Virus record (IMG/VR): IMGVR_UViG_3300032297_000260
Location: 1-44,146 of that record
Origin: a virus
Direction: 5' to 3' (one strand)
DNA: 44,146 nt
The translations under genes were made by a program, and so were the position numbers. Below the pieces are notes generated by a model. That model was given only the letters and a program-made list of their open reading frames with translations, had not been told where the DNA came from and searched no databases. This document shows, piece by piece, positions 15,087 through 41,315 of the stretch. How positions within the stretch are numbered: the first letter of the stretch is position 1; each line of letters starts with the position of its first letter.

Positions 15087-17092
15087 ATATTATACCTAAA
15101 GAGTTAGTAGAAACAGTCAAGTGGGAAGAGCGCAAAGAAGACTATGATCAAGCAATGTTTGAGCTTGGTAAAGGTCTTGATCTCTTTTATGTAGTTAATC
15201 CCGAACTTCCTGAGTTTTATATTAACGCAATAGACAAAGAATATAGATCATCTAGGTGTGTATTATGGAAACATAATGATATCTGGGTTGTTAAACAGTT
15301 TCACAAAGATTGGACTCCGGCGCACGGCTGGACAATTAAAGAGTTACCTAATCTGCCTAAACAACATTGGAAAGTTAATCCAGATATAGATCCAACTGTC
15401 CTATTTGAAAATGATCCATTTAATAATTACAAGATAGGCCTTTGGGACTTAACATATAAACACACATGGTATCTTGATCCCAAGTATGATCCGGAAGGAA
15501 ATAAGATTTGGGTATATGAGTGTGTAACTGATTGGCTAGATACAGGTAACAAAGACCTTGAGATTATTCCAAAGTTAACTATCACTCACAATAAAGAGTA
15601 CAATCATATTAGATTTGATTACGGTGAGTTTGTCCCCGCTTATTATGACTTAAAGTACGAACATGTTTGGTATATAGATCCCAAATATACACAAGGACAG
15701 AAAGTATGGGCAAAGAGTGTATCGGCGTCTGTGATTAGTGATGGTACAAAAGATATGGGAATTGTTACTCCTGATCTTCCTAAACAAATATGGCATGTGA
15801 ATCCGGATGTTGATGCAGATGTTGTATTCGCCAATGATCCTAAAGATAAGTTTGTTATACCTATTTGGGATATTAACTTTAGTCATGTATGGTATCTAGA
15901 TCCTAAGTATTCTATTGCAGATGAAAAGGTATGGCTGTACAAATGTGAAACTGATTTTACATTTGAAGGCACAAAAGATATGGGATACCTTACGCCTGAT
16001 CTAATTATAGAACAGAATCCGTTGTTAGATGGAGTGACATTTGAATTAGATCCTATAAGTTTATTAGATTTAAAATATGAAAACATTTGGAATCTAGATG
16101 AAGTATACGGTGCGTGGAAAGACATGTGGGCTATTAATATTAAGCCGGCATGGAAGAACACAGAAGGAATTAAGTACAGAGGTTCTATTAGTCCTAACTT
16201 TAAATTATCTTTCAATACTGAGATCCCAGATTTACGATTTAATGTAGACTATAAGATTCCATACCCTGACTTCAAATACGAACATATATGGTATCTAGAT
16301 CCTAAGTATTCTATCGGTAAAAAAGTATGGCTAGCAAGTTTGTCAGCAGTAGAGCATACAGCAGGTGTTAAGGACATGGGCTATGCTATACCAGACATTG
16401 CCGAACAATTAGATGTAATCTTTATCAGCTACAACGAGCCAAATGCAGATGCTAACTGGCAACGAGTATTAGAGAAAGCTCCTAATGCTAAACGAGTAGA
16501 TGGTGTTAAAGGTATCTTTGAAGCACACAAAGCAGCCGCAATGGTTGCAAAGAGTGATATGTTCTATGTTGTTGACGGTGATGCTTACTTGACTGATGAA
16601 TGGCAGTTTGATTTTAGTCCTAATATCTTTGATAGAGATTGTGTGCATGTCTATAGAGCAATGAATCCTATTAACGATTTAACATACGGGTATGGTGGCG
16701 TAAAACTATTTCCTCGCAAGTTACTTTTAGAGGCAACTAACTGGAAAGTAGATATGACTACTAGTATTGCCAGAAAGTTAAAAGTGCTTAGAACAGTTAG
16801 TAATGTTTCCGCATTTAATACAGATGAAATTAGTACCTGGCGTAGTGCGTTCCGTGAATGTGCTAAGTTGGCAGCAGGCACAATTGACAACCAAGTTAGT
16901 GCAGAAACAGAACGCAGATTAAAACTATGGACAAGCAAAGGTACCGATAGGAAGTTTGGTAAGTATGCTATCGCAGGAGCGAAAGCTGGCATGGCATTTG
17001 GCCTTAAGAACAAATTAGACGATAAGTTAATGCAACAAATAAACGACAGACAATGGTTAGAGACACAATTTAAAAATGCAAAATTACATTAA
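15083..17092 (+). CDS. Multi-repeat protein fused to GT-A-like domain
   Basis: A 669-residue protein; the start is at the ATGA overlap with the upstream gene. Residues up to about 440 carry five copies of a 65-80 residue module centred on D-(L/I/F)-x-Y-x-H-x-W-Y-(L/I)-D-P-K-Y, followed by KVW and often GTKDMG. The fourth copy has diverged (WNLDEVY). Residues about 442-669 are the SYNEPNA...RVDGVKG...VVDGD domain, paralogous to the preceding gene, with FRECAKL near the end. Two modules share a 28-base identical DNA run, pointing to recent duplication. The repeats may bind a glycan or a repetitive fibre while the last domain acts on it. Confidence 0.7.
   Translation: MNIIPKELVETVKWEERKEDYDQAMFELGKGLDLFYVVNPELPEFYINAIDKEYRSSRCVLWKHNDIWVVKQFHKDWTPAHGWTIKELPNLPKQHWKVNPDIDPTVLFENDPFNNYKIGLWDLTYKHTWYLDPKYDPEGNKIWVYECVTDWLDTGNKDLEIIPKLTITHNKEYNHIRFDYGEFVPAYYDLKYEHVWYIDPKYTQGQKVWAKSVSASVISDGTKDMGIVTPDLPKQIWHVNPDVDADVVFANDPKDKFVIPIWDINFSHVWYLDPKYSIADEKVWLYKCETDFTFEGTKDMGYLTPDLIIEQNPLLDGVTFELDPISLLDLKYENIWNLDEVYGAWKDMWAINIKPAWKNTEGIKYRGSISPNFKLSFNTEIPDLRFNVDYKIPYPDFKYEHIWYLDPKYSIGKKVWLASLSAVEHTAGVKDMGYAIPDIAEQLDVIFISYNEPNADANWQRVLEKAPNAKRVDGVKGIFEAHKAAAMVAKSDMFYVVDGDAYLTDEWQFDFSPNIFDRDCVHVYRAMNPINDLTYGYGGVKLFPRKLLLEATNWKVDMTTSIARKLKVLRTVSNVSAFNTDEISTWRSAFRECAKLAAGTIDNQVSAETERRLKLWTSKGTDRKFGKYAIAGAKAGMAFGLKNKLDDKLMQQINDRQWLETQFKNAKLH
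15888..16314 (+). repeat. 28-base identical run in two protein modules
   Basis: Bases 15888-15915 and 16287-16314 are identical over 28 positions and encode the same part (WYLDPKYSI) of modules three and five in the repeat protein. Neighbouring modules use different codons for the same residues. Confidence 0.85.
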
Positions 17093-18383
17093 GAATTTAG
17101 ACGAAGCACTACCTACATTTTGTGCCACTCCTTTTGTTAGCATAATGGTTAACACAGATGCCACAGTGAGATATTGCTGTATGGTTAAAGGTGCGTTGAA
17201 CAAGATTAAAAAGCCAGACGGCTCAGTATATACAATTAACGAACCGTTTATTAAAGAAGCATGGAACAGTAAAGACATGCAGGACATCCGAATGTCTATG
17301 GTATCTGGACAACAAGTAGAAGGATGTAGTACTTGCTACCTACAAGAAGCCAGCGGCCGTGTTAGTAATAGACAACACAGCAATCAAGAGTGGGCAGGCA
17401 GACTAGGCACAACTAAGATTGATAAGTTGATTGATGATGCTATTCTTAATAATGGCATCCTTGAAAACAACATTGCCTATTTAGATCTACGATTAGGCAA
17501 CCTTTGCAATTTAAAATGTAGAATGTGCAATCCATATAACAGTACACAGATTGCCAAAGAACATATCGAATTAGAAAAGAAAGATGCCGCATATAAAGTT
17601 GTTTGGGCTAATACATTTGGCAAGTTCAACGAAAAGATTATGGATGTGCAAGAATGGTTTGATCAAGATATGCTATGGGATCAAGTTATTGCCCTAATTC
17701 CTAGCCTGCATAAAGTCTACATGACAGGAGGTGAGCCTACCTTAATTGAGAACAACTTTAGATTTATGCAAGCCTGTATCGATCAAGGACGCACTGACAT
17801 TGTATTATTCTTTAATACAAACTGTACAAACATTAATAAGAAGTTCTTATCTTTGATTAGTCAGTTTAAACAAGTTAACATTAACGCAAGTATGGATGGG
17901 GTTGGCATTGTTAATGAATATATTCGTGCTCCTAGTAAGTGGAGTCAGATTAGTGCTAACATCGAAAAGCTAGCACAAATGCCTAATGTGGTATTAGGTG
18001 TTACTCCTACAGTACAGGTATATAATGTATTCAATCTAGTTGACACCCTTGAATGGGTTGACGAACTTAATCAAAAGTATAATTCAAATACATTTGTTGA
18101 CTTCTTAATCAATGTACATCCACATCAACTTGCTGTGGGCATACTTCCTGATGATATTCGTAAGGATGCTGCTGATAGATTAATTGCTTACAACTCAACA
18201 GGCAAGCATGAGTTAACTGTTAATAGCATTGCAGGCATTATTGGACTATTACAACGACCTAGAGATGAAGACTGGCAGTACCAACAAAAGGAATTAAAAG
18301 TGTATACACTGAGCTTAGATAAAGAAAGAGATCAAAACATTGCCGATGTTGATGCTCGTATTGCGGAGTTTGTAAATGAGTAA
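17076..18383 (+). CDS. Radical SAM protein with N-terminal twitch-like domain (1 of 4)
   Basis: A 435-residue protein. The N-terminal region has FC-x-x-PF (Cys16), a Cys pair (34-35) and EGC-x-x-CY (84, 87), resembling a twitch/SPASM-type auxiliary Fe-S module placed before the core. The radical SAM motif C-x3-C-x2-C is at 144, 148 and 151 (LCNLKCRMC), followed by TGGEPT for SAM binding and SMDGVG. It should cleave SAM to a 5'-deoxyadenosyl radical; the substrate is unknown. The start at 17076 lies 17 bases inside the previous gene and has no Shine-Dalgarno, so it depends on coupling. Annotated relatives occur in T4-like marine phages. Confidence 0.88.
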   Translation: MQNYIKNLDEALPTFCATPFVSIMVNTDATVRYCCMVKGALNKIKKPDGSVYTINEPFIKEAWNSKDMQDIRMSMVSGQQVEGCSTCYLQEASGRVSNRQHSNQEWAGRLGTTKIDKLIDDAILNNGILENNIAYLDLRLGNLCNLKCRMCNPYNSTQIAKEHIELEKKDAAYKVVWANTFGKFNEKIMDVQEWFDQDMLWDQVIALIPSLHKVYMTGGEPTLIENNFRFMQACIDQGRTDIVLFFNTNCTNINKKFLSLISQFKQVNINASMDGVGIVNEYIRAPSKWSQISANIEKLAQMPNVVLGVTPTVQVYNVFNLVDTLEWVDELNQKYNSNTFVDFLINVHPHQLAVGILPDDIRKDAADRLIAYNSTGKHELTVNSIAGIIGLLQRPRDEDWQYQQKELKVYTLSLDKERDQNIADVDARIAEFVNE

Positions 18384-19620
18384 GTCTAAAACATTCTGCA
18401 TCTTACCTTGGATACATGCCGCTACATACACAGACGGCAGCGCATTGCTTTGCTGTGTGGCCAAATCAGATAGAGAAACTAATCTAAACAACATGACAAT
18501 GAAGGAAGCATGGAACAGTCATATGTTTAAAGATGCTAGACTAAAAATGTTGCGTGGGGAAGAAGTTAGTAATTGCCATCACTGTTATGCTGAAGAAGAA
18601 GTAGGCATGCATAGTCACAGGCTAGTTGAAAACTATGTTTGGTATAAGAAGTTAGGTAAAGAATACTTAGACGATCTTGTTGCAAAAACAAAACAAGATG
18701 GTAGTGTTGACCACGACTTCATTACGCTAGATCTACGATTAGGCAATACCTGTAATTTACAATGTATCATGTGCCGCCCTGTCGATAGTAGTAAATGGGT
18801 CAAGCACGCCAACATCCTTAAGGACGAATTAACAACAGAAGTCAAATGGGATTGGAAACACAAGGTAGAAGATTACAGCGTAAAGAATTTTGAATGGTAC
18901 AAAGATGCAGAGTTCTTGGAAAGTTTCTATGCCAATGCTGGCGGAATCAAACACATCATTTTTGGTGGTGGTGAACCGTTGTATATCAAAGAACACAAAG
19001 AGATTATTAAACAGTTAGTTGATCGTGGACATAGCAAAGATATTGAACTTCGTTATCATACCAACGGTACTATTTGGGATCAAGAAGTTGCAGACCTGTG
19101 GACACAATTTAAACGAGTCGAAGTAATGATTAGTCTAGATGGAGTAGGAGAAGTAAACGATTACATTCGTTACCCTGCAGATTGGCCTACAATTGAAAAG
19201 AATCTAGCCCTGTATGATAATACACCGGATATGATTGATCCTAAAATTTTATGTACAGTACAGGCAATGAACATTGACCACCTGCCTGAGTTTGCAGATT
19301 GGTTGTTAGACAAGAACTATAAGAAAATTAGTAAGAAGTCGCAGGATGGAATATTCCATCCAGGTATATTACATTATCCGCAATACCTAAGTCCTAAAGT
19401 ATTACCTGCTGCCGTCAAAGAAAGAATAACATTAAAGCTAGCAGAGTATGCTAATAAACATTTAGATAATGCACACATTCAAAAGTTTAAACAACTAACT
19501 GAACTAATGAATAGTGAAGACTTGAGTTTTATGTTTAATCAGACAATGGAATACATAAACAAATTAGATCAACTACGATCAAGCGATAGTACTTTTTTCA
19601 GGACAGTAATAAATGGATGA
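18376..19620 (+). CDS. Radical SAM protein with N-terminal twitch-like domain (2 of 4)
   Basis: A 414-residue paralogue of the preceding gene. Auxiliary cysteines are C8 (FCILPW), C26-C27 and C67/C70 (NCHHCY). The radical SAM cysteines are 126, 130 and 133 (TCNLQCIMC), with FGGGEPL and SLDGVG. GGAG is seven bases before the ATG, which overlaps the previous gene by eight bases. The paralogues keep all eight cysteines but differ elsewhere, so they probably act on different positions or substrates. Confidence 0.88.
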   Translation: MSKSKTFCILPWIHAATYTDGSALLCCVAKSDRETNLNNMTMKEAWNSHMFKDARLKMLRGEEVSNCHHCYAEEEVGMHSHRLVENYVWYKKLGKEYLDDLVAKTKQDGSVDHDFITLDLRLGNTCNLQCIMCRPVDSSKWVKHANILKDELTTEVKWDWKHKVEDYSVKNFEWYKDAEFLESFYANAGGIKHIIFGGGEPLYIKEHKEIIKQLVDRGHSKDIELRYHTNGTIWDQEVADLWTQFKRVEVMISLDGVGEVNDYIRYPADWPTIEKNLALYDNTPDMIDPKILCTVQAMNIDHLPEFADWLLDKNYKKISKKSQDGIFHPGILHYPQYLSPKVLPAAVKERITLKLAEYANKHLDNAHIQKFKQLTELMNSEDLSFMFNQTMEYINKLDQLRSSDSTFFRTVING

Positions 19621-20971
19621 TAGCATTAACGATCTAAGAAAAGAAATTCTAAAGAGCGAAACATTTTGTTTCTATCCTTTCTTAGAATTAAGCACAAACC
19701 CAGCAGGACATTTAAAACCTTGCTGTTATTATAGCAATGTACTGTTTAAAGGTGATGAAGGCGATTACACCAACATCTATAGTATCACTAAGAATAGTAC
19801 GCTTGAAGAAGCATGGAATTCTCGTCCTATGATTGAGATTAGAAGGCAGCTAGTAGAAGGTGAAGTCAATAAGAACTGTGATACCTGCTATAGAGATGGC
19901 CCTGCAAGTATGCGTGTCAGAAGTATTGGCGAATACAAAAACAATGCTGAAGTATTGACTAAAGTACAAGATACAATTTTAAACGGATACGAAACACCTT
20001 ATTTGCCTAGTAGGTTAGAATTAAAGCCCAGCAATCTTTGTAATTTGAAATGTGTAATGTGTAACAGTTATGATTCTACTCAAGTTGCAAAAGAATTAGT
20101 TGAACTATCGAACAAGTTTAAAGGCATTAATGTTAAGACTGGCCGATTCATTAGTATTAATCTAGAACAGCCTGGTATTACTGAAACACATGCAGCATTT
20201 GAAGATGTAGAAGTTCCCGACTGGTCAGATAACGACGAGCTATGGAATAGTTTTACTAAAATTGCTCCAGGATTAGAACATTTAAGTTTTGCTGGTGGTG
20301 AGCCTACTTTAATTCCGTTTGTACAAAAAGTATTAGATTACTGTGTAGAACAAGACTATGCAAAGAATATTAAAATCAGTGTCGCTAGTAATTTTACAAA
20401 CATGAATAAAAACTTCTTAGAAGTTATGCCTAAATTTAAAAGGTTTGAAATTATTGCAAGTATTGATGGCATTGGCCTAGTTAATGACTACTGTAGATAT
20501 CCTAGCAAATGGAGTCAGATCTCGAGTAATTATGAAAAGACAAAACAATTAACTAAACATTCTAATGTTAAGATAATGACAAACATAACAGTTAACTTTT
20601 TAAATGTTATGAATTTAGATCAATTATTGTATTGGATTGAAGACCAAGCAGACCGATATCCTTATTTCCGCGAATATCCGTATAATATAAATTTAATTTG
20701 GTCTCCTAACGATCAACGAATCGAACATTTACCTAATCACCTTAAAGAGATTGCCATTCAACGACTAGAAAAATATAAGTCAACAAGCAGTATATTAAAA
20801 GAATTTCCAGGAATGGTTTCTAGAATTGATTTAGTATTAAATGAGTTAAAAAAACAAGGTAGCGAGTACGAACTAGAACAGTTTAAGAAAAGACTCAAAG
20901 TTTTAGATGAACATAGAGGAATTAATGTAGTAGACTATATTCCAGACTTAGGAGATGCCTTTAATGAATAA
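19613..20971 (+). CDS. Radical SAM protein with N-terminal twitch-like domain (3 of 4)
   Basis: A 452-residue paralogue. Auxiliary cysteines are C19 (FCFYPF), C37-C38 and C89/C92 (NCDTCY). The radical SAM motif is C143-x3-C147-x2-C150 (LCNLKCVMC), with AGGEPT and SIDGIG. It is closest to copy 1 in the stretches around the cluster (CNSYDSTQVAKELVEL against CNPYNSTQIAKEHIEL). The start overlaps the previous stop region by eight bases. Confidence 0.88.
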   Translation: MDDSINDLRKEILKSETFCFYPFLELSTNPAGHLKPCCYYSNVLFKGDEGDYTNIYSITKNSTLEEAWNSRPMIEIRRQLVEGEVNKNCDTCYRDGPASMRVRSIGEYKNNAEVLTKVQDTILNGYETPYLPSRLELKPSNLCNLKCVMCNSYDSTQVAKELVELSNKFKGINVKTGRFISINLEQPGITETHAAFEDVEVPDWSDNDELWNSFTKIAPGLEHLSFAGGEPTLIPFVQKVLDYCVEQDYAKNIKISVASNFTNMNKNFLEVMPKFKRFEIIASIDGIGLVNDYCRYPSKWSQISSNYEKTKQLTKHSNVKIMTNITVNFLNVMNLDQLLYWIEDQADRYPYFREYPYNINLIWSPNDQRIEHLPNHLKEIAIQRLEKYKSTSSILKEFPGMVSRIDLVLNELKKQGSEYELEQFKKRLKVLDEHRGINVVDYIPDLGDAFNE

Positions 20972-22070
20972 ATCTATCTGTGCTTACCCTTGGAATGCAA
21001 CAGCAATACGACCAAATGGTATTGTCATTCCTTGTTGCAGGTATCCACACATAGATGACAGCAATAGCAATGTACTTTCTGTTGAACCTAGAAATTCTAA
21101 CCATTGGAATAATCTACGACAAGATATGTTAGAAGGTAAAGAAATTGCAGGATGTATAAGTTGTTATCAAGATGAGGCAACTGGAATAGATAGTATGAGA
21201 ACAACTAGTCTTAAGAATTTTATTCCTATTAATAAAGAAATAGAAAAATTAACAAGACTAGAAGTATCTTTTAGCAACTTATGTAATCTTGCATGTGCTC
21301 ATTGTTCTTCCTTCTTTTCAAGCAAATGGTATTCTGAAGATGTAAAAGCTGGCCGCAAGGAAAAATCAGGATATATTGAAAATAGTTTTAATTTTAACAA
21401 TTGGGATTTATCCAAATTAACTGATCTTAAAATTATTGGCGGCGAACCATTTATGGAACAAAAACAATTTGTTTCATTAATGAACAGTATCGATTTATCA
21501 AAAATAGAATTACAGATATGTACCAATGGTACAATATTACCTGGACCTGAATTAAAAGGTTTAATAGAGAAATGTAAAAAAGTTTATCTATGTGTTAGCC
21601 TAGATGGTATTGGCTCTGTTAATGATTGGTATCGTTGGCCGAGTAAATTTAACGAGGTTGTAGAAAATATGAAGAAATTTGAACAATGGTGGGGCGGATC
21701 TTCTAATATTATTTTTATAGTTCATCATGTTATTAACGCTATTAATGTTATTGACTTACCAAAATTTATTAGTTTTATAAATGATAATTTTTCTAGATGG
21801 ATTATTGAGTGGGACTGGATTCGATGGCCAGAATGGCAAGAATTATCAGTACTGCCTGAAATAATTAAAGTTAAACTAATTGAAGAATTTAAACAGAAAG
21901 AAGAAAGTTTTAATTCTAAGCATACTCAAAATCCTTATGCTTCTACGATTAGCAGATTATTAGAAAATCGTTCAACATCATGGGAAACTGCTATAGTTAA
22001 GATGTTCAATATATCAACAGAAAGACAATTAGATTTTCTTTCTATGGTACCTAATTTTAAAAATATATGA
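20964..22070 (+). CDS. Radical SAM protein with N-terminal twitch-like domain (4 of 4)
   Basis: A 368-residue paralogue, the shortest. Cysteines are C6 (ICAYPW), C24-C25, C64/C67 (GCISCY), then radical SAM C107-x3-C111-x2-C114 (LCNLACAHC), with IGGEPF and SLDGIG. The start at 20964 has AGGAG nine bases upstream; an ATG at 20955 directly abuts that site and is less likely. It overlaps the previous gene by eight bases and the next by four. Confidence 0.87.
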   Translation: MNKSICAYPWNATAIRPNGIVIPCCRYPHIDDSNSNVLSVEPRNSNHWNNLRQDMLEGKEIAGCISCYQDEATGIDSMRTTSLKNFIPINKEIEKLTRLEVSFSNLCNLACAHCSSFFSSKWYSEDVKAGRKEKSGYIENSFNFNNWDLSKLTDLKIIGGEPFMEQKQFVSLMNSIDLSKIELQICTNGTILPGPELKGLIEKCKKVYLCVSLDGIGSVNDWYRWPSKFNEVVENMKKFEQWWGGSSNIIFIVHHVINAINVIDLPKFISFINDNFSRWIIEWDWIRWPEWQELSVLPEIIKVKLIEEFKQKEESFNSKHTQNPYASTISRLLENRSTSWETAIVKMFNISTERQLDFLSMVPNFKNI

Positions 22071-22996
22071 AAATTCTAAAAGTAATATTTTTAGACAAGT
22101 TTGATAAAACACATTCCTTATATTATAGGATCTATGATACTGACTTAGCAAATCGCTGGATGAAATTAATTGAAACAAACAAGTCACAAAAGAAGAAATT
22201 GTTTAATAAATTTACCAATCAGATTTACTCTGACTTGCCTGAAGTAACTGAGAATTTGAATAAAATAGTTACTGATATTAATAAACGATACGATCAACAA
22301 TTACCAATATATGATACGCTAGATACTGACAAGTTAAACTATCTACACGAACAATTTGAAGTATATGGAGATAGAGTTGAAGAGTTTTCTAAGAATAAAA
22401 CTTGGACTGATGAATTGCATCAATTATTTTTAAGATTAAATGATGCAATTCATTTAACAGAGGATGTATTAAAGACTAAATCTAGGGATTGGCCCAGCTT
22501 TGCTATGTTGTACGATTATATTCCTCAAGAACATCATTTACCAATTAACGAAGAAGATAAGTTCTTACTTCGGCCTAACCTACAATGGGGCAAAATATAC
22601 CTAGGATATAATACGCTAGGGAAAGATTGGCTTAAAGTACAATGTGATAACGATATAGAAGTTGTTGAGAGAGATCAAGTTAGACCACAAGAACGATTTG
22701 CTGCTGAAAGCTGGTTAAACTTTGGTCCCGATCAAGATTACAATACTTCTATGATGCGTTTCTATCAGTGGTATAAAGGTTTGCCTGAAGACTTACAAGC
22801 TAAAGTACCTATGTATAATCACTATCAATTAAACTTAGGTAGATTTATTTTAGGCGAACTAATTATTGATGAGTACTTTCTATCATTTCACAACAATGAA
22901 GAAGATTGGCACACACCTAGACATCAATGTAAAATTGATTGGTGCATGAAAGTTTTTACAACATTTAGATCCTTACAGGATATTAGTTTTATATGA
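22067..22996 (+). CDS. Unknown protein following radical SAM genes
   Basis: A 309-residue protein, helical and charged in its first half (NKSQKKKLFNKF, LNKIVTDINKRY), with a more ordered second half containing GKIYLGYNTLGKDW, PQERFAAESWLNFG and a final His/Trp-rich stretch (FHNNEEDWHTPRHQCKIDW). No known catalytic motif. It is coupled by four-base overlaps to the radical SAM gene before it and the oxygenase after it, so it is probably a partner in the same process. Confidence 0.65.
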   Translation: MKILKVIFLDKFDKTHSLYYRIYDTDLANRWMKLIETNKSQKKKLFNKFTNQIYSDLPEVTENLNKIVTDINKRYDQQLPIYDTLDTDKLNYLHEQFEVYGDRVEEFSKNKTWTDELHQLFLRLNDAIHLTEDVLKTKSRDWPSFAMLYDYIPQEHHLPINEEDKFLLRPNLQWGKIYLGYNTLGKDWLKVQCDNDIEVVERDQVRPQERFAAESWLNFGPDQDYNTSMMRFYQWYKGLPEDLQAKVPMYNHYQLNLGRFILGELIIDEYFLSFHNNEEDWHTPRHQCKIDWCMKVFTTFRSLQDISFI

Positions 22997-23664
22997 ACGC
23001 AGAACTATTACAATTTGTAGAAGCCAACGGTAAGTTTAATTGGAGACCTGATCCAAAAAACTATCCTGCTAATCTTTGGAATAGTGATTGGCCATTTGTT
23101 ACATATGAAAAGACTATAGATCCATTTTTCGTACAAATGGAGCTTGAGAAGATTGATCATTTGTTTGTAGAACATCGATCAAAGGATAGTTACGGACACA
23201 GTGGTTGGAGTTCAATCACTCTACACGGCATAGACTACAACAAAACAGAACACTTTGATAGGTATGGTTTTACCAATGAAGCAGATGCAAATTATCAATG
23301 GACTAGTATATGCAATCAAATACCATACATAACCAATGTAATTAAGAATCTGCCGTTTTGTGATTATGGTCGTATACGGATCATGAGACTCGCCCCTGGA
23401 GGTTTCGTAATGCCACATAAAGATGGTAATGGTAGAACATTTGGACCTTTTAATTTTGCTCTTACCAATCCTGTAGGATGTAAGTTTATATTTGAAGGTT
23501 ATGGAGTTGTTCCATTTGCCCAAGGCCGCGGTTGTATGCTAGACTTAGGAATACGACATGCAGTCTTTAATGAATCTGATCAGAATAGGTATCATGTTAT
23601 TGTACATGGTAGTCCTACTAGTAAGTTTTATCAAGGAATGATGAGTTCAATTGCACACCTATGA
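22993..23664 (+). CDS. 2OG-Fe(II) / aspartyl-asparaginyl hydroxylase-like oxygenase
   Basis: A 223-residue protein. GRIRIMRLAPGGFVMPHKDG carries His142-x-Asp144; the distal His189 (RHAVFNES) and Arg199 (NRYHVIVHG) complete the iron and 2-oxoglutarate site. The order and spacing fit the aspartyl/asparaginyl beta-hydroxylase family. It would hydroxylate a protein side chain or small molecule using O2 and 2-oxoglutarate. It is coupled by ATGA overlaps on both sides, placing it in the same unit as the radical SAM enzymes. Confidence 0.8.
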   Translation: MNAELLQFVEANGKFNWRPDPKNYPANLWNSDWPFVTYEKTIDPFFVQMELEKIDHLFVEHRSKDSYGHSGWSSITLHGIDYNKTEHFDRYGFTNEADANYQWTSICNQIPYITNVIKNLPFCDYGRIRIMRLAPGGFVMPHKDGNGRTFGPFNFALTNPVGCKFIFEGYGVVPFAQGRGCMLDLGIRHAVFNESDQNRYHVIVHGSPTSKFYQGMMSSIAHL

Positions 23665-25022: not shown

Positions 25023-25557
25023 CAAAGATGCGTTCAGTAGTGGACAAATAGGCAGTAAGCTATGGTTATGCCAAGAATTAGAAAATTTAAGATGGACATC
25101 TGATCTAACCTACATCTATGCAGGTTGGTATGGTATTACTGCCTTTTTACTATTGTCTAGGGGAAAGTTTCGAGTAGGTAAAATTAGAAGTTTAGATATT
25201 GATCCATCTGCACAAGAAGTGGCTGATATGGTTAACGAAAATTGGGTTATCGATGATTGGAAGTTTAAAGCATTTACACAAGATTGTAACAACTTTGAAG
25301 GACAGTACGGTGACTTAATTATTAATACAAGTACCGAGCACTTTGAGAGTATGGAATGGTTTGATAAGATACCCAATGGAACACGAGTTATTCTTCAAGG
25401 TAATAACATGCCGCATGATGATCATCATGTACATTCAGTAACACTTAACGATTTTGCACAGAAGTATCCGTTGACAAATACTGTATATCTTGGAGAAAAA
25501 CACTTTACATACCCTAGCTGGAGCTTTATTAGGTATATGGTAATGGGATACAAATGA
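25006..25557 (+). CDS. SAM-dependent methyltransferase-like protein
   Basis: A 183-residue protein. LTYIYAGWYGITAFLLLSRG is a variant of methyltransferase motif I, followed by KIRSLDIDPSAQEVADMV with the acidic residue after strand 2, and GDLIINTSTEHF as motif IV. The Gly-rich loop is reduced compared with the classic GxGxG. It would methylate an unknown acceptor. The start lies within the end of the previous gene. Confidence 0.65.
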   Translation: MNFAVNKDAFSSGQIGSKLWLCQELENLRWTSDLTYIYAGWYGITAFLLLSRGKFRVGKIRSLDIDPSAQEVADMVNENWVIDDWKFKAFTQDCNNFEGQYGDLIINTSTEHFESMEWFDKIPNGTRVILQGNNMPHDDHHVHSVTLNDFAQKYPLTNTVYLGEKHFTYPSWSFIRYMVMGYK

Positions 25558-26090
25558 TTAATAAATTGTCCTTTATAGCAGACTTAGAACAAGTTAAGAA
25601 TGATCTTGCTTTAGTATTAACATACACTGAGTGGGGAGAAGACAACCAAATTTCTTTGAAGCATAGGACGGGTGCAATTAATACATGGAAAGACGGTATC
25701 GGTAGCTTATATGATAAAACTTCTCGGTCTGATACAGCACACGAAAAGGACTTCACTGAATACAATGAACACCTTCCTGAATATACATTAAACCTACTCA
25801 AAGATTTTTCTCAATCACAAGGATTTGAATTGGGTAGAGTTCGTTATATGCGTCAGCTATCTAAGCGAGGGTTAAGTGTACATAAGGACACTAGCAAGCG
25901 ATACCATTTAGCTATACAAACTAATGAATTTTCGTATTTTGGATTTGGGTTAGATAAAGGACCAGTTAAGGCGTTCTGTTATCATATTCCTGCAGACAGT
26001 AATTTTTACATGGTTGATACAACTAAACAGCATTTTGTATATAATGGTGGATGGGAAGACAGAGTACATTTGGTTATTTGTCCTGCATGA
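25554..26090 (+). CDS. 2OG-Fe(II) / aspartyl-asparaginyl hydroxylase-like oxygenase
   Basis: A 178-residue protein. RVRYMRQLSKRGLSVHKDTSKRYHLA carries His110-x-Asp112; His160 (TTKQHFVYNGG) and Arg170 (EDRVHLVIC) complete the site. It has the same layout as the oxygenase at 22993 but is shorter. It is the last gene of the coupled chain that began at 11672; the next gene has its own late-type promoter 9 bases after this stop. Confidence 0.78.
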   Translation: MINKLSFIADLEQVKNDLALVLTYTEWGEDNQISLKHRTGAINTWKDGIGSLYDKTSRSDTAHEKDFTEYNEHLPEYTLNLLKDFSQSQGFELGRVRYMRQLSKRGLSVHKDTSKRYHLAIQTNEFSYFGFGLDKGPVKAFCYHIPADSNFYMVDTTKQHFVYNGGWEDRVHLVICPA

Positions 26091-26111: not shown

Positions 26112-26990
26112 ATGAAACACAGTATAGAAGACGGACGCTATTGCATAGAATTAGAAACAGAAGGGTTTATCCCTGCTTTTGAAAAGCAAAGTTTCTATAA
26201 GGACGCACGACAGTTATTAGATAAAGAAAAAGACATTCCGGCTGTAATGTTTAGCGGCGGACTTGATAGCCAAATTGTAGTTAAAAGTCTAATGGCAAAT
26301 AATGCAGAGTTTGAGTGCTTCTTTATGTACAGGCCAGGCGCTAACGAAACCGAGCTAGAAAACGCTCGCTTGTGTCAGAAACGATGGGGTTTCAGATTGA
26401 ACATCATCGATATAGACCCAGTTGCTGACTTTCAAAGTTATCAACAACTAATGCCTGCGGCAGATATTACTGGATATTCTTACTGTCTATATCACAGCTT
26501 CACTAAACAGATTCCGGATACATTCTCTTTAATACAAGGTACTGCACCGTATCTAATATTATGGAGAGGTAAGACTGAACTAGAAGTTATCTTCTCTTAT
26601 TATGATAGCATCGAACAGAACAGACGGGTAATTGATCACACAGCAGGCAAACCTAGGCATATACATTTTCCGTACACTGATAAGCTACACTGTATGATGA
26701 TGTCTAACCAATATGTTAACCATTTACGGAATTGCTTTGACTACTATGCCTTCCAGTATAATGATATGTTAGACAAATACAGTATTTGGGACAATTGCTT
26801 TAAGCCGTTAATACATAGTCATATATGGGGAGACGAACTAATCTATTTTCCTAAGAAGCATGGTATGGAAAATATGTATTGGGCTACCCATAGTATTCCA
26901 CCTGGCCGTAAAATCTTTATGAAGCATATTGACTACGAAAATTTGTTTAAGACAACTACCGGAACACAAAAGTTTTATGAAGCTAGATGA
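26112..26990 (+). CDS. PP-loop ATP pyrophosphatase (1 of 3)
   Basis: A 292-residue protein. VMFSGGLDSQ at 46-54 is the SGGxDS PP-loop of N-type ATP pyrophosphatases (asparagine synthetase B C-domain, QueC, TtuA, ExsB type). It would adenylate a carboxylate or similar group using ATP. No glutaminase domain and no zinc-binding cysteine set were found, so it is neither a complete asparagine synthetase nor an evident QueC. It overlaps the next gene by 14 bases. Confidence 0.8.
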   Translation: MKHSIEDGRYCIELETEGFIPAFEKQSFYKDARQLLDKEKDIPAVMFSGGLDSQIVVKSLMANNAEFECFFMYRPGANETELENARLCQKRWGFRLNIIDIDPVADFQSYQQLMPAADITGYSYCLYHSFTKQIPDTFSLIQGTAPYLILWRGKTELEVIFSYYDSIEQNRRVIDHTAGKPRHIHFPYTDKLHCMMMSNQYVNHLRNCFDYYAFQYNDMLDKYSIWDNCFKPLIHSHIWGDELIYFPKKHGMENMYWATHSIPPGRKIFMKHIDYENLFKTTTGTQKFYEAR

Positions 26991-28131
26991 TAACATTTAT
27001 TCAGTTAAGGGTAAGCTATTTTCAAATAAGGTAGATGCTTTACGATATGCTACTGAAATTAACTGTGAACGATCAGATATCAAATACTATTATCATAACG
27101 ATGTTTGGGAAAAGTTTGATAGATCGTTACTAGGTAAAATTAGTTTAAACGAATTGTATAGACAAAGAGCGCAGCAGATTAGAGATAGTTATGATTATTT
27201 GATCTTATACTATTCAGGCGGCTGCGACAGCGACAACATTCTTAAAACATTCCTTAACAATAATATTCCACTAGATGAGATTGTAATAAAGTGGCCAAAG
27301 AAACTCATTGGCAGCAGTATATATGTACCTAATACTGTTGATAAGACTGCAAGAAATTTTGTTAGTGAATGGGATTTTGTATTAGAAAAAGAACTAAAAT
27401 GGTTGGCTGAAAACTATCCTAAAATTAAAATTACAATTGTAGATTATGTAGAAGATATTAAAAAAGGATACTTCAACGAAGATTTATTCCTTAAACAAAA
27501 TCATATGCATAGTGCTCTTAATTTTTTAAGGATGCAGACATTTACGGATTCTGAATTAAATCCTAAAGGTAGGGTTGCAGGCATAGTAGGGTTAGATAAA
27601 CCTATTATTTGTAAACATAAAGATAACGCATATATGTATTTTATAGATGCTATATTGTGCCAGCATCCTCCTGCAGACGGAACCTATCGAGAAAACTTTT
27701 ATTGGAGTCCTGACTTTCCTTTACTTGGATTCGAAATGGCATACCAAGTGTTCAATTTCTTTAAAGTTAATCCGTTATATCAGAGCTTAGTTCCTAATAT
27801 TACATGGGAATACTTAACAGATGAAGTAGGTTGGGATAATATTATACAATACTATAACATTATCAAACCTGTAATATACCCAGATTGGAACATGGCTAAA
27901 TTCCAAGCAGAGAAACCTGCACAGGGATATAGAGCAGATAAAGACTTCTGGTTCTATGAAAGTCCTGAGTTTAAAACGCCCAAAGACGAATGGCAATATC
28001 ACTATGACTCTCAAATGAGTGTTATAGCTAATAAATTTTGTGTAGTTGATGCAACAGGTAAGAAGACAGCATACCGACAAGTAAGGACTCCGTTATATCA
28101 AATAGGAAACTGGAATGCCGGCATTAGGTAA
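26977..28131 (+). CDS. PP-loop ATP pyrophosphatase (2 of 3)
   Basis: A 384-residue protein; the start is at 26977, inside the previous gene. LILYYSGGCDSDN holds SGGCDS at 80-85. The ~75-residue N-terminal part has no glutaminase-type Cys2. The second half is Trp/Tyr-rich (PDWNMAKFQ, YRADKDFWFYESPEF). It is a longer paralogue of its two neighbours and should activate a carboxyl or related group by adenylation. Confidence 0.78.
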   Translation: MKLDDNIYSVKGKLFSNKVDALRYATEINCERSDIKYYYHNDVWEKFDRSLLGKISLNELYRQRAQQIRDSYDYLILYYSGGCDSDNILKTFLNNNIPLDEIVIKWPKKLIGSSIYVPNTVDKTARNFVSEWDFVLEKELKWLAENYPKIKITIVDYVEDIKKGYFNEDLFLKQNHMHSALNFLRMQTFTDSELNPKGRVAGIVGLDKPIICKHKDNAYMYFIDAILCQHPPADGTYRENFYWSPDFPLLGFEMAYQVFNFFKVNPLYQSLVPNITWEYLTDEVGWDNIIQYYNIIKPVIYPDWNMAKFQAEKPAQGYRADKDFWFYESPEFKTPKDEWQYHYDSQMSVIANKFCVVDATGKKTAYRQVRTPLYQIGNWNAGIR

Positions 28132-28984
28132 AGACAACTGGCTACATTATAACTTTGGCGGATCATCTTTAAGGATAGATCCTAAATCTGACCTTGAGGT
28201 TGTTATTACAAAGAAAGCTAATAAACAAGTTTTATTCCACGATGCTAGAAAGATAGTTGCTGATGATATTGCAATAGTTGCAGGCAATCGTAAAATATTT
28301 GTAGGTCTTAGTGGCGGAATCGACAGCGAAATTGTTGCACAAAGTTTCTACGATTTAGGTATTGAAATACAACCTATCATCACAGATATTAAATGGTATA
28401 ACCAACATGTTAACTATCATGACACATGGTATGCACATAGGTGGTGTAACGAAAGAAACATTAAACCTATTGTGTTTAATTACTCTATTAGCGAGTTACT
28501 TTCTGAAAGTCTACGACTAGCAACACAATTAAGAACTAGAAAACTATATCCTTTGTTAAATGTAATTAATTCACAGTTTGCAAAAAGCCATGGGGGTGTA
28601 TTTGTAAACGGACAAGCATTGATTGAGTACTATCCAGAACATACGCTAGACTACATTAAAGACATGCAAGGGCTTAGTGATGGCTGGTTAATACATGAAT
28701 GTGATTTCTATGTAGATATGGAAGATACAGGATATCACCCATATAACTTCTTGAGTTGGACTCCTGAAATAGTCTTGTCTATTATTTCAGCAAGAGATTT
28801 TGATTTAAATAGTGAAGACAACAAGGCTAATCTAACAGGATTATTGCCTAGACCTAAGTTAGGAATGCCAGATCTAGCGTTACACTACTATCATGAGTCA
28901 ATGGTAAAACAACGACAACTATATGGAACAAGTGAAATATTCCATTTTGGAACACATGATCAATTATTAAAAAAGTTATTATGA
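28115..28984 (+). CDS. PP-loop ATP pyrophosphatase (3 of 3)
   Basis: A 289-residue protein. KIFVGLSGGIDSEIVAQ holds SGGIDS at 66-71. The region PIITDIKWYNQHVNYHDTWYAHRWC follows as in asparagine-synthetase-like proteins, where substrate specificity lies. It overlaps the previous stop by 17 bases and the Rieske gene by four. Three successive enzymes of this class next to an oxygenase suggest repeated amide, amidine or similar bond formation on one scaffold. Confidence 0.8.
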   Translation: MPALGKDNWLHYNFGGSSLRIDPKSDLEVVITKKANKQVLFHDARKIVADDIAIVAGNRKIFVGLSGGIDSEIVAQSFYDLGIEIQPIITDIKWYNQHVNYHDTWYAHRWCNERNIKPIVFNYSISELLSESLRLATQLRTRKLYPLLNVINSQFAKSHGGVFVNGQALIEYYPEHTLDYIKDMQGLSDGWLIHECDFYVDMEDTGYHPYNFLSWTPEIVLSIISARDFDLNSEDNKANLTGLLPRPKLGMPDLALHYYHESMVKQRQLYGTSEIFHFGTHDQLLKKLL

Positions 28985-29787
28985 AAGAAATACATTTTTT
29001 AGCACACACAACAGAATTAGATACAGATGCAGTTAAGCCTGTTTCACAATTAGATAACAAATTACTTGTAAAAGGTGATACTATACAGTTGTTTAACAAT
29101 ATATGTCCCCATCAGCTTAGTCGCATTTGCTCTAAAAAACAAAACGAATTAAAATGTCAGTTTCATGGATGGACTTGGGATCTTAATGGTAACGGAGATA
29201 TTAATTTAAAAGGTACTCCTGTCTTTAAAGATAACGGACTACTATTCACTGATAATATTTCTATTAAAGAGTTTGCAGGACTACATATTGAACAGTATAA
29301 ACTAGTTTCAGAACGAGTAGACATAGTTAACGCTGATTGGAAAAATATTGTAGATTTGTTTTTAGATGTTGACCATATTCCTATAGTACATAAAGGCGTA
29401 TATGAGCAAATAGGAATAACAGACAAAGCTAAAATTGACTGGTCTTACCACGACTGGGGCAATGTGCAAACAGTTCATAATGAAAATAATAAACTAGTTG
29501 CAATATGGGCCATGGTATACCCATACTCGATGATAGAATGGCAAGCAGGTTCATTATTTGTAACAGTCTGTAAACCAATTGGAGATAGTACCGCAGTTAC
29601 GGTATTCAAATATACTGATCCTAATACTAGCTACTATCAAGGTAACTCTAGAATATTTGAAGCAGCTTGGTCTCAAGATAAGAATCAAGCAGAGAATATT
29701 ATAATGTTTCCAAAAGTATCAGACGATGCACAAAAAATGCATTTTAGAAATTACCTAACAATTCACCGGCATCTGCTAAATCTTTAA
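28981..29787 (+). CDS. Rieske non-heme iron oxygenase
   Basis: A 268-residue protein. The Rieske 2Fe-2S site is C42-P-H44 (NNICPH) and C59-Q-F-H62 (CQFHGWTW). The mononuclear iron motif D125-x3-D129-x2-H132-x4-H137 is perfect (DVDHIPIVH). It is shorter than most bacterial Rieske oxygenases (about 350-450). No reductase or ferredoxin is seen nearby, so electrons would have to come from the host. The reaction could be hydroxylation, demethylation or desaturation. Its 3' end overlaps the convergent gene by 44 bases. Confidence 0.85.
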   Translation: MKEIHFLAHTTELDTDAVKPVSQLDNKLLVKGDTIQLFNNICPHQLSRICSKKQNELKCQFHGWTWDLNGNGDINLKGTPVFKDNGLLFTDNISIKEFAGLHIEQYKLVSERVDIVNADWKNIVDLFLDVDHIPIVHKGVYEQIGITDKAKIDWSYHDWGNVQTVHNENNKLVAIWAMVYPYSMIEWQAGSLFVTVCKPIGDSTAVTVFKYTDPNTSYYQGNSRIFEAAWSQDKNQAENIIMFPKVSDDAQKMHFRNYLTIHRHLLNL

Positions 29788-30426: not shown

Positions 30427-30434
30427 GATAAATA
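30427..30434 (+). promoter_or_regulatory. T4-type late promoter (GATAAATA)
   Basis: Located 16 bases before the ATG at 30451. It interleaves with the minus-strand TATAAATA at 30433-30440. Confidence 0.45.
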
Positions 30435-30440
30435 TTTATA
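30433..30440 (-). promoter_or_regulatory. T4-type late promoter (TATAAATA) close to start
   Basis: An exact T4 late consensus on the minus strand, ending eight bases before the ATG at 30424. Confidence 0.65.
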
Positions 30441-31685: not shown

Positions 31686-32435
31686 ATGTTTTCAGCTACT
31701 AAAAATTCTCTCATCGCATATCAAATATTAGCCCACATGGCATTTGTGGCCATGTTATTTTATGGATCAATAACTACTTGGTCAATTGCTATTGCAATAT
31801 ATTTCTTTATTGCAACTATAGGAGGAACGGTTACTTACCATCGTTTACTATCTCACAAATCATTTAAGCCTCAAAAATGGTTTTCCTATTTTGGACCAAT
31901 CGTAGGAGCTATAGGTGGCAATGGTTCAGGTATTGCCTGGGTTGCTATTCATAGAGAACATCATAGGTATACGGACACAGAAAAAGATCCACATAGCCCT
32001 ATATATAAAAGCTTCTTTAGAATTCAATTTTTAAGTATGTGTGATATTCCTAATATTAGATATGTCCCTGACCTGTTGCGTTCTAAGTTCCATATGTGGA
32101 TACATACAAATTACTGGCTTATCAACCTTGTTTATGTTGCTATTCTTTATATGATAGACCCTTGGGCAGTTGTATATGCTTATTTTGTTCCCACACTAAT
32201 GGTATGGCATGCTGGGAGTTTTATTAATACTGTTAATCATACTATTGGTTATCGACCTAATGAAACTACTGATACAAGCACCAATAACTTATTCACAGGT
32301 TACTTAGTCTCAGGCGAAGGTTGGCACAACGGCCATCATGCATTTCCTGCAAATGCAAAATTTGGTAAAAAGTGGTGGGAGTTTGATCTAGGTTGGCAAG
32401 TGATCAAACTAGTAAGGTCTAATGAAACTAGCTGA
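31686..32435 (+). CDS. Membrane fatty-acid desaturase, acyl-CoA delta-9 type (1 of 2)
   Basis: A 249-residue membrane protein with all three histidine boxes of the acyl-CoA/lipid desaturase family: H52-RLLS-H57, H89-RE-HH (89-93) and H214-NG-HH (214-218), plus NTVNH near 185. Hydrophobic segments lie at about 10-45 and 143-175. It should insert a cis double bond in an acyl chain at the cytoplasmic membrane, using a di-iron centre and host electrons. It overlaps its paralogue by 14 bases. AAGGA precedes the start. Confidence 0.88.
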   Translation: MFSATKNSLIAYQILAHMAFVAMLFYGSITTWSIAIAIYFFIATIGGTVTYHRLLSHKSFKPQKWFSYFGPIVGAIGGNGSGIAWVAIHREHHRYTDTEKDPHSPIYKSFFRIQFLSMCDIPNIRYVPDLLRSKFHMWIHTNYWLINLVYVAILYMIDPWAVVYAYFVPTLMVWHAGSFINTVNHTIGYRPNETTDTSTNNLFTGYLVSGEGWHNGHHAFPANAKFGKKWWEFDLGWQVIKLVRSNETS

Positions 32436-33180
32436 TATTTTTAAGCCATCTATTAAACTGTTACTGTTAAATCAGTTTATTACCTATTGTGTGTTTGTCT
32501 ACTTTTTATTTACAGGTACAAGTACTGAGTGGCTAATTGTATTTGCTATCTATCTTTTTAGAGTGACAATAGGAGCAACAATTACTCTACATAGATTACT
32601 ATCACATCGATCTTTTATTGCTCCTAAGTGGTTTGAATATGTTGGAAGTATTATTGCAACTTATGGTGGAGGAGTATCGACTATTGGATGGGTTGCAATT
32701 CATCGAGAGCACCATAAATTCTCTGATACCGATCGTGATCCGCACAGTCCTAATCATCTACACCCTCTTGCTGTGCAATTTCGAGCCGGGTTGAAAGTTC
32801 CCAGTATAAAATATGTACCAGATTTACTAAGGTCGAAGTTTCATGTAACAATAAATCAATATCATTGGGCAATCACATCATTGATATTTCTATCTATACT
32901 AGCAATAGATCCTAGAGCTTTAGTATTTGCATACTTTGTCCCTAATCTAATATACTGGCACTCTGGAGGATTAATTAACACAATTAACCATATGTGGGGC
33001 TATCGAACTTATCAAACTAAAGATTCTAGTACTAATAATTGGTTAACTGGATATCTAGTAGCAGGAGAAGGTTGGCACAACAATCATCACAATGCCGCTT
33101 CTAGTCCTAAGTTTGGAGAGAAATGGTGGGAGTTTGATCTAGGATGGCAAGTAATTAAACTGATTCAGAAGAATCCCTAA
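32422..33180 (+). CDS. Membrane fatty-acid desaturase, acyl-CoA delta-9 type (2 of 2)
   Basis: A 252-residue paralogue: H57-RLLS-H62, H94-RE-HH (94-98), H219-NN-HH (219-223), and NTINH at about 186-190. The two share long stretches such as YVPDLLRSKFH and KWWEFDLGWQVIKL, but the membrane segments differ, so they may introduce double bonds at different positions. It is coupled to the first copy and overlaps the convergent methyltransferase by 26 bases. Confidence 0.88.
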   Translation: MKLADIFKPSIKLLLLNQFITYCVFVYFLFTGTSTEWLIVFAIYLFRVTIGATITLHRLLSHRSFIAPKWFEYVGSIIATYGGGVSTIGWVAIHREHHKFSDTDRDPHSPNHLHPLAVQFRAGLKVPSIKYVPDLLRSKFHVTINQYHWAITSLIFLSILAIDPRALVFAYFVPNLIYWHSGGLINTINHMWGYRTYQTKDSSTNNWLTGYLVAGEGWHNNHHNAASSPKFGEKWWEFDLGWQVIKLIQKNP

Positions 33181-36572: not shown

Positions 36573-37318
36573 TCCAGCAAGGGTATTTTATTTGTTATGC
36601 TCCGGGAACTTCCGGAGCTTTCATTTCATCACTAGTTGGACAAATAGTTAATTCTACAACTAAAAAGTTTGTATACTCAGACCACGGCAATTCACATACT
36701 AACTTGTCTGATTCAAATGGCGGATTAGATTGGGCGTTGGCACCTACACCTACTACAAGTGAGTACTTTTATAAGAATTTATTCACTTATAACAGTGGTA
36801 GGCCTATTGTGATATCAAATCATCTTCACCCAGCCTGGGAAACTATTGCTAAACGATGGCCTACTTTTAAGATGATATTAATCACACATTCAATAGACGA
36901 TCTTGATGAAATTGCTGCAAGTTTGTTTTACAAATATTATGTAGATGATTTTGATTCGGTTTCTAATAAGGCGTTCAAAGATGTAATACAGACGCATAGT
37001 CGAGTATTTGGCCGAGAAGTTGCCCACCCTAATGAATTAACCGAAAGTGAAAAACGGTTGTTTATGAAAATCATTGTGTTCCATAAAATTACAGATGGTT
37101 ACATTCATCCAACAGTTCCCCCAGAGTATACAGCAAATACTCTTCTACTGCCTTATAGAGAAATTATATCTAACAAAGATCTAGTATTAGACAAATTATC
37201 TACTTTTCTAGAAAAGCCAATACCAGAAGCAACAAAAGATAATTACGATGCGTACATGATGTACCAACGAAAACTAGAAAGAGAGAAAATGACATGGTTA
37301 AAACCATTCGACTTATAA
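36569..37318 (+). CDS. Sulfotransferase-like / P-loop family protein (tandem 4 of 4)
   Basis: A 249-residue paralogue beginning at a GTG that overlaps the previous TGA (GTGA). YFICYAPGTSGAFISSLVGQIV is the opening loop; VISNHLHPAWETI, MILITHSIDDLDEIA and LLLPYREIISNKDLVLDKLS follow. It is the most diverged of the four. Its end overlaps the binding-protein gene by 25 bases. Confidence 0.5.
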   Translation: MIQQGYFICYAPGTSGAFISSLVGQIVNSTTKKFVYSDHGNSHTNLSDSNGGLDWALAPTPTTSEYFYKNLFTYNSGRPIVISNHLHPAWETIAKRWPTFKMILITHSIDDLDEIAASLFYKYYVDDFDSVSNKAFKDVIQTHSRVFGREVAHPNELTESEKRLFMKIIVFHKITDGYIHPTVPPEYTANTLLLPYREIISNKDLVLDKLSTFLEKPIPEATKDNYDAYMMYQRKLEREKMTWLKPFDL

Positions 37319-38262
37319 TTTTATCATTATTATTGACCGCAGTTAACGCATTTGCCTGGCAACCAACAAAACCAATTAGAGTTATCTTAGGATTTACACC
37401 TGGATCAGGTAACGAAGTAAGTTTCAGAGGTGTTGAAGCTGTTCTACAAAAGCAGTACCCTAATTTAAATTTTATTATAGAGCATAGACCAGGCGTAGAT
37501 TCCATTCTTGCTACAAACTACTTTGCAAAATTACCTGCTGACGGCTATGCAATTAGTATTCCTAGCGAACAGGGTACTTTTGTTACAGCAGAGGTATGGA
37601 ATAAAAAGGCAATGGAGTTTGATCCATTTGAATTTGAATTTGTAACTTCTATTGCACAGAGCCCATTAGCCCTAGTTGCCAGTGTAAACAGTCCTGTTAA
37701 TACAGTTAATGAACTGATTGAAACACTTAAGAAGCCAAATAGAGATATTAATTTCGCTGTTGGGGGAGGTGCTCATAAAGTAGCATATGAATTCTTAACA
37801 GAAACAATTAAAGCAAACGACACTAAAATACAAGCTGTACAATACAAAGGCCCTAATCCTGCTGTACTAGCTGTTGCTTCTAATCAAACAGAGTTTGGAA
37901 TCATGCCCGTTGCAATTGCTCAACCATTAATTACAGGTGGCAGGGTAAAGTTAATTGCACTTGCTGGTGATAAGAAGCTTTCAGCTTATCCAAATACTCC
38001 GTTACTAAAAGATTTTGTTCCTGGTCTAGTAGTTAACGCCGGTTGGGTAATTGTATTGCCCAAGGGAACTCCTAAAGAAATCGTTAATTGGTATGTAAAT
38101 GCATTTGTACCTGCTATCAGGAGTGCTGAAGCTAAAGTGTATTTTGATAACAATTTAATGATTGTTAATGAAAATCAACTCGGACCTGAAAAAGCAAAGA
38201 ACGCAATGATTAATTTACGAGACAAATGGCAACCAATTGTCCGTAAAATGAAAGTGGATTAA
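37294..38262 (+). CDS. TctC/Bug-family periplasmic solute-binding protein
   Basis: A 322-residue protein with a Sec signal peptide (MVKTIRLIILSLLLTAVNAFA, cleavage likely after residue 21). The mature part opens WQPTKPIRVILGFTPGSGNEVSFRG and has EHRPGVDSILATNYFAKLPADGYAI, INFAVGGGAHKVAYEFL and ITGGRVKLIALAGDKKLSAYPNTPLL, all typical of tripartite tricarboxylate transporter binding proteins. These bind carboxylated small molecules in the periplasm and deliver them to TctAB. No transporter membrane subunits are present, so the host must supply them, or the protein acts alone. Full length, not truncated. Confidence 0.9.
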   Translation: MVKTIRLIILSLLLTAVNAFAWQPTKPIRVILGFTPGSGNEVSFRGVEAVLQKQYPNLNFIIEHRPGVDSILATNYFAKLPADGYAISIPSEQGTFVTAEVWNKKAMEFDPFEFEFVTSIAQSPLALVASVNSPVNTVNELIETLKKPNRDINFAVGGGAHKVAYEFLTETIKANDTKIQAVQYKGPNPAVLAVASNQTEFGIMPVAIAQPLITGGRVKLIALAGDKKLSAYPNTPLLKDFVPGLVVNAGWVIVLPKGTPKEIVNWYVNAFVPAIRSAEAKVYFDNNLMIVNENQLGPEKAKNAMINLRDKWQPIVRKMKVD

Positions 38263-41314: not shown

Positions 41315-41315
41315 A

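Follow-up and report, generated by a model that had tools for sequence, protein, structure and literature searches.

The window analysed here is a complete IMG/VR virus record (IMGVR_UViG_3300032297_000260; 44,146 bases) that probably represents only part of a larger phage genome. On its plus strand, three successive genes for PP-loop proteins are followed by a gene for a Rieske non-haem iron oxygenase. The PP-loop proteins are P1 (26112..26990; 292 residues; motif SGGLDS), a putative stand-alone carboxylate-activating synthetase; P2 (26977..28131; 384 residues; SGGCDS); and P3 (28115..28984; 289 residues; SGGIDS). The Rieske protein (28981..29787) has 268 residues. Each open reading frame overlaps the next, forming a single run, and the Rieske start overlaps the P3 stop (ATGA). 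P2 is taken to start at ATG 26977, although the mechanical reading frame begins at TTG 26929.

All four genes are genuine and intact. A six-frame search of the window for SGGxD[ST] returns exactly three sites, one in each PP-loop gene, just as a preliminary description of this DNA had reported. Relative to the nearest contig, dN/dS is 0.017 for P1, 0.048 for P2, and 0.073 for P3; such strong purifying selection means that these are not chance reading frames. Clustering assigns the three proteins to separate phage families, named PP1 (P1), PPb (P2), and PPa (P3).

The preliminary description also gave the run its own late-type promoter. This candidate is rejected: TATAAATA occurs at two sites in the window (6.8 are expected by chance), both on the minus strand and neither near 26112. 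The upstream gene, on the same strand as P1, stops at 26090, and the 21-nucleotide gap between them holds only CTTAAATATCTC, which abuts the ATG at 26112. Because this short gap contains no promoter, the run is a continuation of the upstream genes and not a new start. The four genes form one unit in the sense of an overlapping same-strand run, but a separate transcription unit is not supported. The two TATAAATA sites, at 30433-30440 (-) and 39783-39790 (-), lie about 8-9 nucleotides upstream of minus-strand gene starts (30424-29744 and 39775-39164, respectively), and the first has a counterpart in the closest contig (L003 12755-12762), again ahead of the orthologous gene. Both look like T4-type late promoters serving those two genes.

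The Rieske Oxygenase

Judged by its sequence, the fourth protein is a short Rieske non-haem iron ring-hydroxylating oxygenase of the alpha-subunit type, with complete iron ligands. It exceeds both relevant Pfam gathering scores (PF00355, 35.1 versus 20.3 bits; PF00848, 27.3 versus 24.9 bits) and contains both CxH-x14-CxxH and DxxHxxxxH, bearing out the small oxygenase with a full iron motif that had been described. The 2Fe-2S ligands C42, H44, C59, and H62 are invariant in 12 aligned rows; the mononuclear iron site, D129, H132, H137, and the distal Asp D233, is invariant in the five closest rows. Relatives in the phage family are 17-45% identical to the window protein.

Among sequences in the PDB, the best profile matches are SxtDIOX/SxtT, of saxitoxin synthesis (2.4e-16), and the carnitine monooxygenase CntA (3.5e-16). 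Ligand spacing is the same in these enzymes, but they are longer (334-391 residues versus 268), and no reductase gene is recognised near the phage gene. Indeed, a Pfam scan of 41 window proteins reveals no partner reductase or ferredoxin, a function that the host may supply.

The PP-Loop Proteins

The P1, P2, and P3 sequences by themselves are reticent. Family libraries return weak, mutually conflicting matches, all under cut-offs. Against PF00733, the asparagine synthetase (AS) family, P1 scores 13.8 bits where gathering requires 21, and P2 and P3 do not match this family. The stated lack of a glutaminase domain holds up: Pfam finds none in these short proteins, and no possible start places the catalytic Cys at residue 2. 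The motif itself is well kept: SGGxDS is invariant in the 54-row PPa alignment, as is S-G-G-x-D in the 22-row PPb alignment.

AlphaFold2 models for P3 and P2 are more informative. For the P3 model (predicted local distance difference test [pLDDT] 90.0, predicted template modelling score 0.90), the 11 top PDB entries all belong to the asparagine, beta-lactam, and carbapenam synthetases (Z 13.8-12.3, over alignments of 234-251 residues; root-mean-square deviation 4.2-4.8). Below these come TsnB9, of the same class (Z 10.7), and NAD synthetase and LarE (Z at most 9.9). For the P2 model (pLDDT 84.6), the 12 top entries are AS-type synthetases (Z 10.6-8.3, with TsnB9 at 8.5), and the next class follows at 7.5. 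In their predicted folds, P3 and P2 therefore correspond to asparagine synthetase B and to the beta-lactam and carbapenam synthetases in the synthetase half; the glutaminase half is missing. In BFVD, the models nearest to P3 are uncharacterised proteins from uncultured phages.

Might the PP-loop proteins instead be sulfur-transfer or tRNA-modifying enzymes of the LarE, TtuA, MnmA, or TilS type? Such proteins do appear among the Foldseek matches of the P3 and P2 models, and weak NCBIfam and Pfam matches name TilS, MnmA, and LarE. However, every match falls far under its curated cut-off, VIA Z scores lie 2-4 units below those of the AS-type synthetases, and no CxxC pair is seen when the sequences are read by eye. 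This identity is very unlikely.

QueC-like proteins (QueC, QatC, Cap9) also have the PP-loop in common with P1-P3 and give weak matches: 0.0053 (Pfam, P1), 0.0027 (the PADLOC QueC model, P1), and, for Cap9, 0.018 (PPa profile). P1-P3 nevertheless score far under the cut-offs; with the QueC model TIGR00364, P1 reaches 18.9 bits of a curated 150.3, and P2 and P3 do not match. Reading by eye shows no C-terminal cluster of Cys residues in P1-P3 of the zinc-binding kind that marks QueC. PADLOC defence-system models yield just weak matches, the other being viperin (7.9e-7, with a radical SAM protein).

A Recurrent Oxygenase-Synthetase Pair

The Rieske/PPa pair is conserved across many uncultured phages. 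Scanning IMG/VR with an alignment of the Rieske protein alone identified 48 contigs. A PP-loop gene lies at most three genes from the Rieske gene in 47 of them, a proportion that applies to this Rieske subfamily and not to all phage Rieske proteins, as the query rows came from loci that had initially been identified by their PP-loop motifs; the 48th contig ends right after its Rieske gene. As background, a PP-loop gene is equally near for only 14 of 1518 non-PP genes from loci that were retrieved with the radical SAM family.

With the window included, the 49 loci hold 50 Rieske genes, of which 40 directly adjoin a same-strand PPa gene; PPa is downstream in 35 cases and upstream in five, and most of these pairs overlap by 8-19 nucleotides. 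The other ten comprise one that adjoins an opposite-strand PPa gene, four with an opposite-strand PPa two genes off, four with PP1 or PPb only, and one with no PP-loop gene. At 90% non-redundancy 32 pairs are left, still holding many of one lineage (the FolE type). Distance matrices for the two partners correlate (r=0.79; 0 of 2000 permutations), although this could stem from shared phage descent.

Inactive PP-loops, which the preliminary description had named as a sign against its proposal, are absent from the pairs examined: SGGxDS is intact in 45 of 45 PPa proteins. On the other side of the pair, CxH..CxxH is present in 45 of 45 Rieske proteins, and DxxHxxxxH in 44 of 45. In record G028 (L155), the Rieske match at 107895-108701 (-) reads through one TGA; sequencing error, decay, or recoding are all possible.

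Scanned by pattern, 84,980 cellular genomes yielded no relatives of PPa and none of the Rieske protein; this method misses distant relatives and leaves absence unproven. A tblastn search of INPHARED (50,697 deposited phage records) gave no match for P1, P2, P3, the window Rieske protein, or another PPa. With a second Rieske protein as query, it picked out two records labelled Acinetobacter (22% identity, 6e-3), a distant generic match.

One Operon or Assorted Cargo?

The contig closest to the window contains P1, P2, P3, and the same flanks, with P1-P3 at 81-95% protein identity, yet it has no Rieske gene. The four genes are therefore not one obligatory pathway, nor is oxidation obligatory for the other three. 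The idea of the four-gene set as one conserved operon, for which the preliminary description had suggested looking in other phages, is accordingly rejected: the set is not conserved, and only its last pair recurs. The conserved unit is the P3-Rieske pair, which is itself dispensable in view of this contig.

P3 (28115-28984) is far more diverged from the closest contig than are P1 and P2 (81% versus 94-95% identity), right beside the point of Rieske presence or absence. Recombination at the P3/Rieske boundary is possible.

These comparisons raise the alternative that the four genes share no common pathway, being separate cargo shuffled together in a hypervariable island. The closest contig is one argument for this, and gene order varies, with PPa before or after Rieske. 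In addition, the P2 family habitually keeps other company: a gene for a TctC/DctP solute-binding protein, a putatively secreted binder of carboxylates, lies at most three genes from PPb for 15 of the 23 PPb genes that a PPb scan returned and for 17 of 26 from a scan for PP motifs. (The window TctC gene is about 9 kb downstream of P2, and does not adjoin it.) For the P3 family and Rieske, the 47 of 48 loci and the gene overlaps contradict the alternative. As an account of all four genes it is unlikely, but P1 and P2 may be separate cargo with respect to the P3/Rieske pair. Unrelated partners in other genomes, the second sign that had been named against a joint role, are not what the neighbourhoods display: the P3-family/Rieske pairing repeats from phage to phage.

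The Surrounding Island

The run sits in a variable island. Upstream are four tandem N-terminal-twitch radical SAM proteins (17076..22070, +), all above the curated 170 bits of NF033640; two Asp/Asn-hydroxylase-family 2-oxoglutarate oxygenases (PF05118), one at 22993..23664 (+; 5.2e-11) and one at 25554..26090 (+; 5.6e-6), 21 nucleotides before P1; and glycosyltransferase-like genes with weak support, judged partly by eye. Downstream are two fatty-acid-desaturase-family proteins (31686..33180, +; PF00487, 1.2e-18 and 5.2e-15); a TctC-type solute-binding protein (37294..38262, +; PF03401, 1.6e-24) whose N-terminus resembles a signal peptide by eye; and weak sulfotransferase-like matches. An acyl carrier protein and an A-type iron-sulfur carrier follow (41072-41386 and 41316-41642, both -), and an AcpS-like protein, just below the Pfam cut-off, is encoded further upstream (8247-8645, -).

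For 15 of 49 Rieske genes, a member of the desaturase family is no more than three genes away. Locus L128 (3531-14804) packs seven PP-loop genes, two TctC genes, one AdoMet decarboxylase-like gene, one Rieske gene, and one desaturase gene into about 11 kb. Along the window, the later radical SAM copies share 25-35% identity with the leading one, and at least 585 related stretches occur in IMG/VR contigs. Just before them, a 675-residue protein (15065-17092) has repeated segments of the form ...HxWYLDPKY...KVWA... and no Pfam or PHROG match.

By gene content alone, the island resembles cargo of the pelagimyophage host-recognition clusters, which include radical SAM cassettes and lipopolysaccharide genes, with stearoyl-CoA desaturase, speH, and 2-oxoglutarate oxygenase in freshwater members (PMC7029224); the word Rieske is absent from that text.

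The same inventory invites the proposal that the island tailors a ribosomal peptide or protein through its radical SAM, Asp-hydroxylase-family, AS-type, and Rieske enzymes, a kind of role that AS-like enzymes have for lasso peptides and nitrilobacillins. The four twitch radical SAM proteins, the two PF05118 hydroxylases, and the AS-type folds would suit such a role, and the nitrilobacillin pathway provides a precedent for AS-like enzymes on peptides, as they act there on peptide C-termini after aspartate hydroxylation (PMC13060819). No precursor peptide turned up, though no search was aimed at one. Nor do the radical SAM genes travel with the pair: they show up at few of the 48 Rieske loci, and a nearby PP-loop gene is seen for only 14 of the 1518 genes from radical SAM loci. 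Peptide tailoring is quite unlikely.

A Deazaguanine Connection?

Neighbours at other loci point elsewhere. At 21 of the 48 Rieske loci (L169-L192) there is FolE, QueD, or QueE, usually in the order FolE-Rieske-PPa-QueD-QueE, and PHROG matches are QueE-like and QueD-like. The pair could therefore serve 7-deazaguanine DNA modification, with the P3-type synthetase replacing QueC on 7-carboxy-7-deazaguanine and the oxygenase modifying the base further. Consistent with this, QueC gives no match (E at most 1e-3) in four FolE-type records (G002, G003, G004, and G005), and QueD (PF01242) is present in 18 of 22 Rieske-bearing records but only two of 28 Rieske-free records of at least 50 kb (Fisher p 6e-8, with two of an original 30 controls, L013 and L035, both without QueD, dropped from the test). 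QueD occurs in three of 14 PPa-only records, a set for which Rieske absence was judged from fetched loci only.

Other members of the pathway do not follow suit. QueE is found in six of 22 Rieske-bearing and five of 14 PPa-only records, against six (plus one borderline, 7.3e-4) of the 13 of those 28 controls used for QueE. A family resembling tRNA-guanine transglycosylase (TGT) is likewise not enriched (9 of 22 versus 8 of 28), and has no PHROG or PDB match; Pfam TGT is likewise not found (0 of 49). It is a putative transglycosylase by its DSGGFQ motif; a TGT-like protein with this motif is encoded at the FolE-type loci L169, L173, and L178. Outside the FolE type, most QueD genes belong to a single syntenic block that these phages have in common, well away from Rieske. 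This block, together with the lack of QueE and TGT-like enrichment, indicates that the QueD signal is mostly one of phage lineage. The window itself has no match to any of the three pathway families, and the P3 fold is nearer to AS-type synthetases. A deazaguanine role for the pair is rather unlikely.

A Model for the Pair

The account that we favour, to which we give somewhat less than an even chance, is that P3 and Rieske form a two-enzyme tailoring module, that P1 and P2 are further synthetases of the same kind gathered in the island, and that the product decorates the host envelope. Direct support comes from the intact genes, full motifs, predicted P3 and P2 folds, purifying selection, and recurrent P3-family/Rieske pairing. 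The folds and motifs argue for the enzyme classes, and the pairing for joint action; from these we infer the carboxylate chemistry, the amine donor, the step order, and the target.

Each PP-loop protein would be a free-standing AS-type synthetase, converting a carboxylate and ATP to an acyl-adenylate and pyrophosphate; attack by an amine would then yield an amide, lactam, or similar C-N bond. Presumably the amine is ammonia or comes ready-made, as there is no glutaminase. The Rieske enzyme, with O2 and electrons from a host reductase, would hydroxylate or otherwise oxidise the same compound, before or after coupling. Most likely, the product would decorate an envelope lipid or sugar during infection, a target suggested by the radical SAM, sulfotransferase-like, glycosyltransferase-like, desaturase, and 2-oxoglutarate hydroxylase genes of the variable island. 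The preliminary description had envisaged amine or amide attachment in sequence, followed by oxidation. The chemistry fits the P3 and P2 folds and the P3-family/Rieske pairing; the order does not find support, P1-P3 representing three families with partly different partners.

Several observations count against the tailoring module with its envelope target. Apart from the missing Rieske gene in the closest contig and the shared descent that may underlie the correlated distances, the converse association is weaker: in the scan for PP motifs, a Rieske gene is within three genes of just 24 of 78 PPa genes. A sequence profile search with PPa places NAD synthetase (1.3e-9) at the top in preference to asparagine synthetase, and Foldseek with the P2 model gives no match below 1e-3. 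Finally, the 21 of 48 loci in a FolE/QueD/QueE neighbourhood are without desaturases, and an envelope role does not account for them.

Known Relatives and Prospects

The enzyme classes are known. Members of the AS family (PF00733: asparagine synthetase B, beta-lactam synthetase, carbapenam synthetase) share their fold with nearly all of the P3 model and most of the P2 model, and SGGxDS is intact; P1-P3 differ in being without the N-terminal glutaminase-type domain, in length (about 290-384 residues), and in scoring below PF00733 gathering. ArtA (nitrile synthetase), TsnB9 (hydroxyamidotransferase), and PesC (nitrilobacillin) likewise perform ATP-dependent C-N chemistry of the AS-type/PP-loop kind, and the P3 model aligns with ArtA at Z 8.6, beside 10.7 for TsnB9. 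These are cellular natural-product enzymes, and no Rieske partner is described for them in the texts consulted. The PesC nitrilobacillin pathway also includes iron oxygenases, and known AS-like tailoring enzymes form amides, lactams, and nitriles, among other settings on peptides and alongside iron oxygenases (PMC13060819). Such pairings of chemistry thus exist elsewhere.

The phage pairing appears to be new within the searches made. In the literature covered, which leaves out most subscription journals, no report was found that joins a phage Rieske protein with PP-loop, desaturase, or auxiliary metabolic genes, or that places an asparagine synthetase beside a desaturase among the auxiliary metabolic genes of a phage.

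A broader proposal, tentative and on balance doubtful, is that the Rieske/PPa pair is an undescribed virus-borne step that equips a metabolite, a nucleobase, or a component of the host envelope with an amide-type group in oxidised form (amide, lactam, hydroxamate, or nitrile). The step would be widespread among large uncultured aquatic phages and have no known cellular counterpart, and TctC proteins and P2-type ligases would serve as a parallel arm for carboxylate capture.

Phages are known to carry enzyme cargo, and the Rieske/PPa pair points to unknown virus-borne chemistry. A two-gene oxygenase/synthetase unit, undetected in deposited phages and in cells by the searches used, is an unusually sharp target, as it names two proteins to study together. 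The pair would represent a new route to superinfection exclusion if its product decorates the envelope, a new DNA hypermodification if the product is a nucleobase, and, if the product is a peptide, a phage system akin to those for ribosomally synthesised and post-translationally modified peptides.

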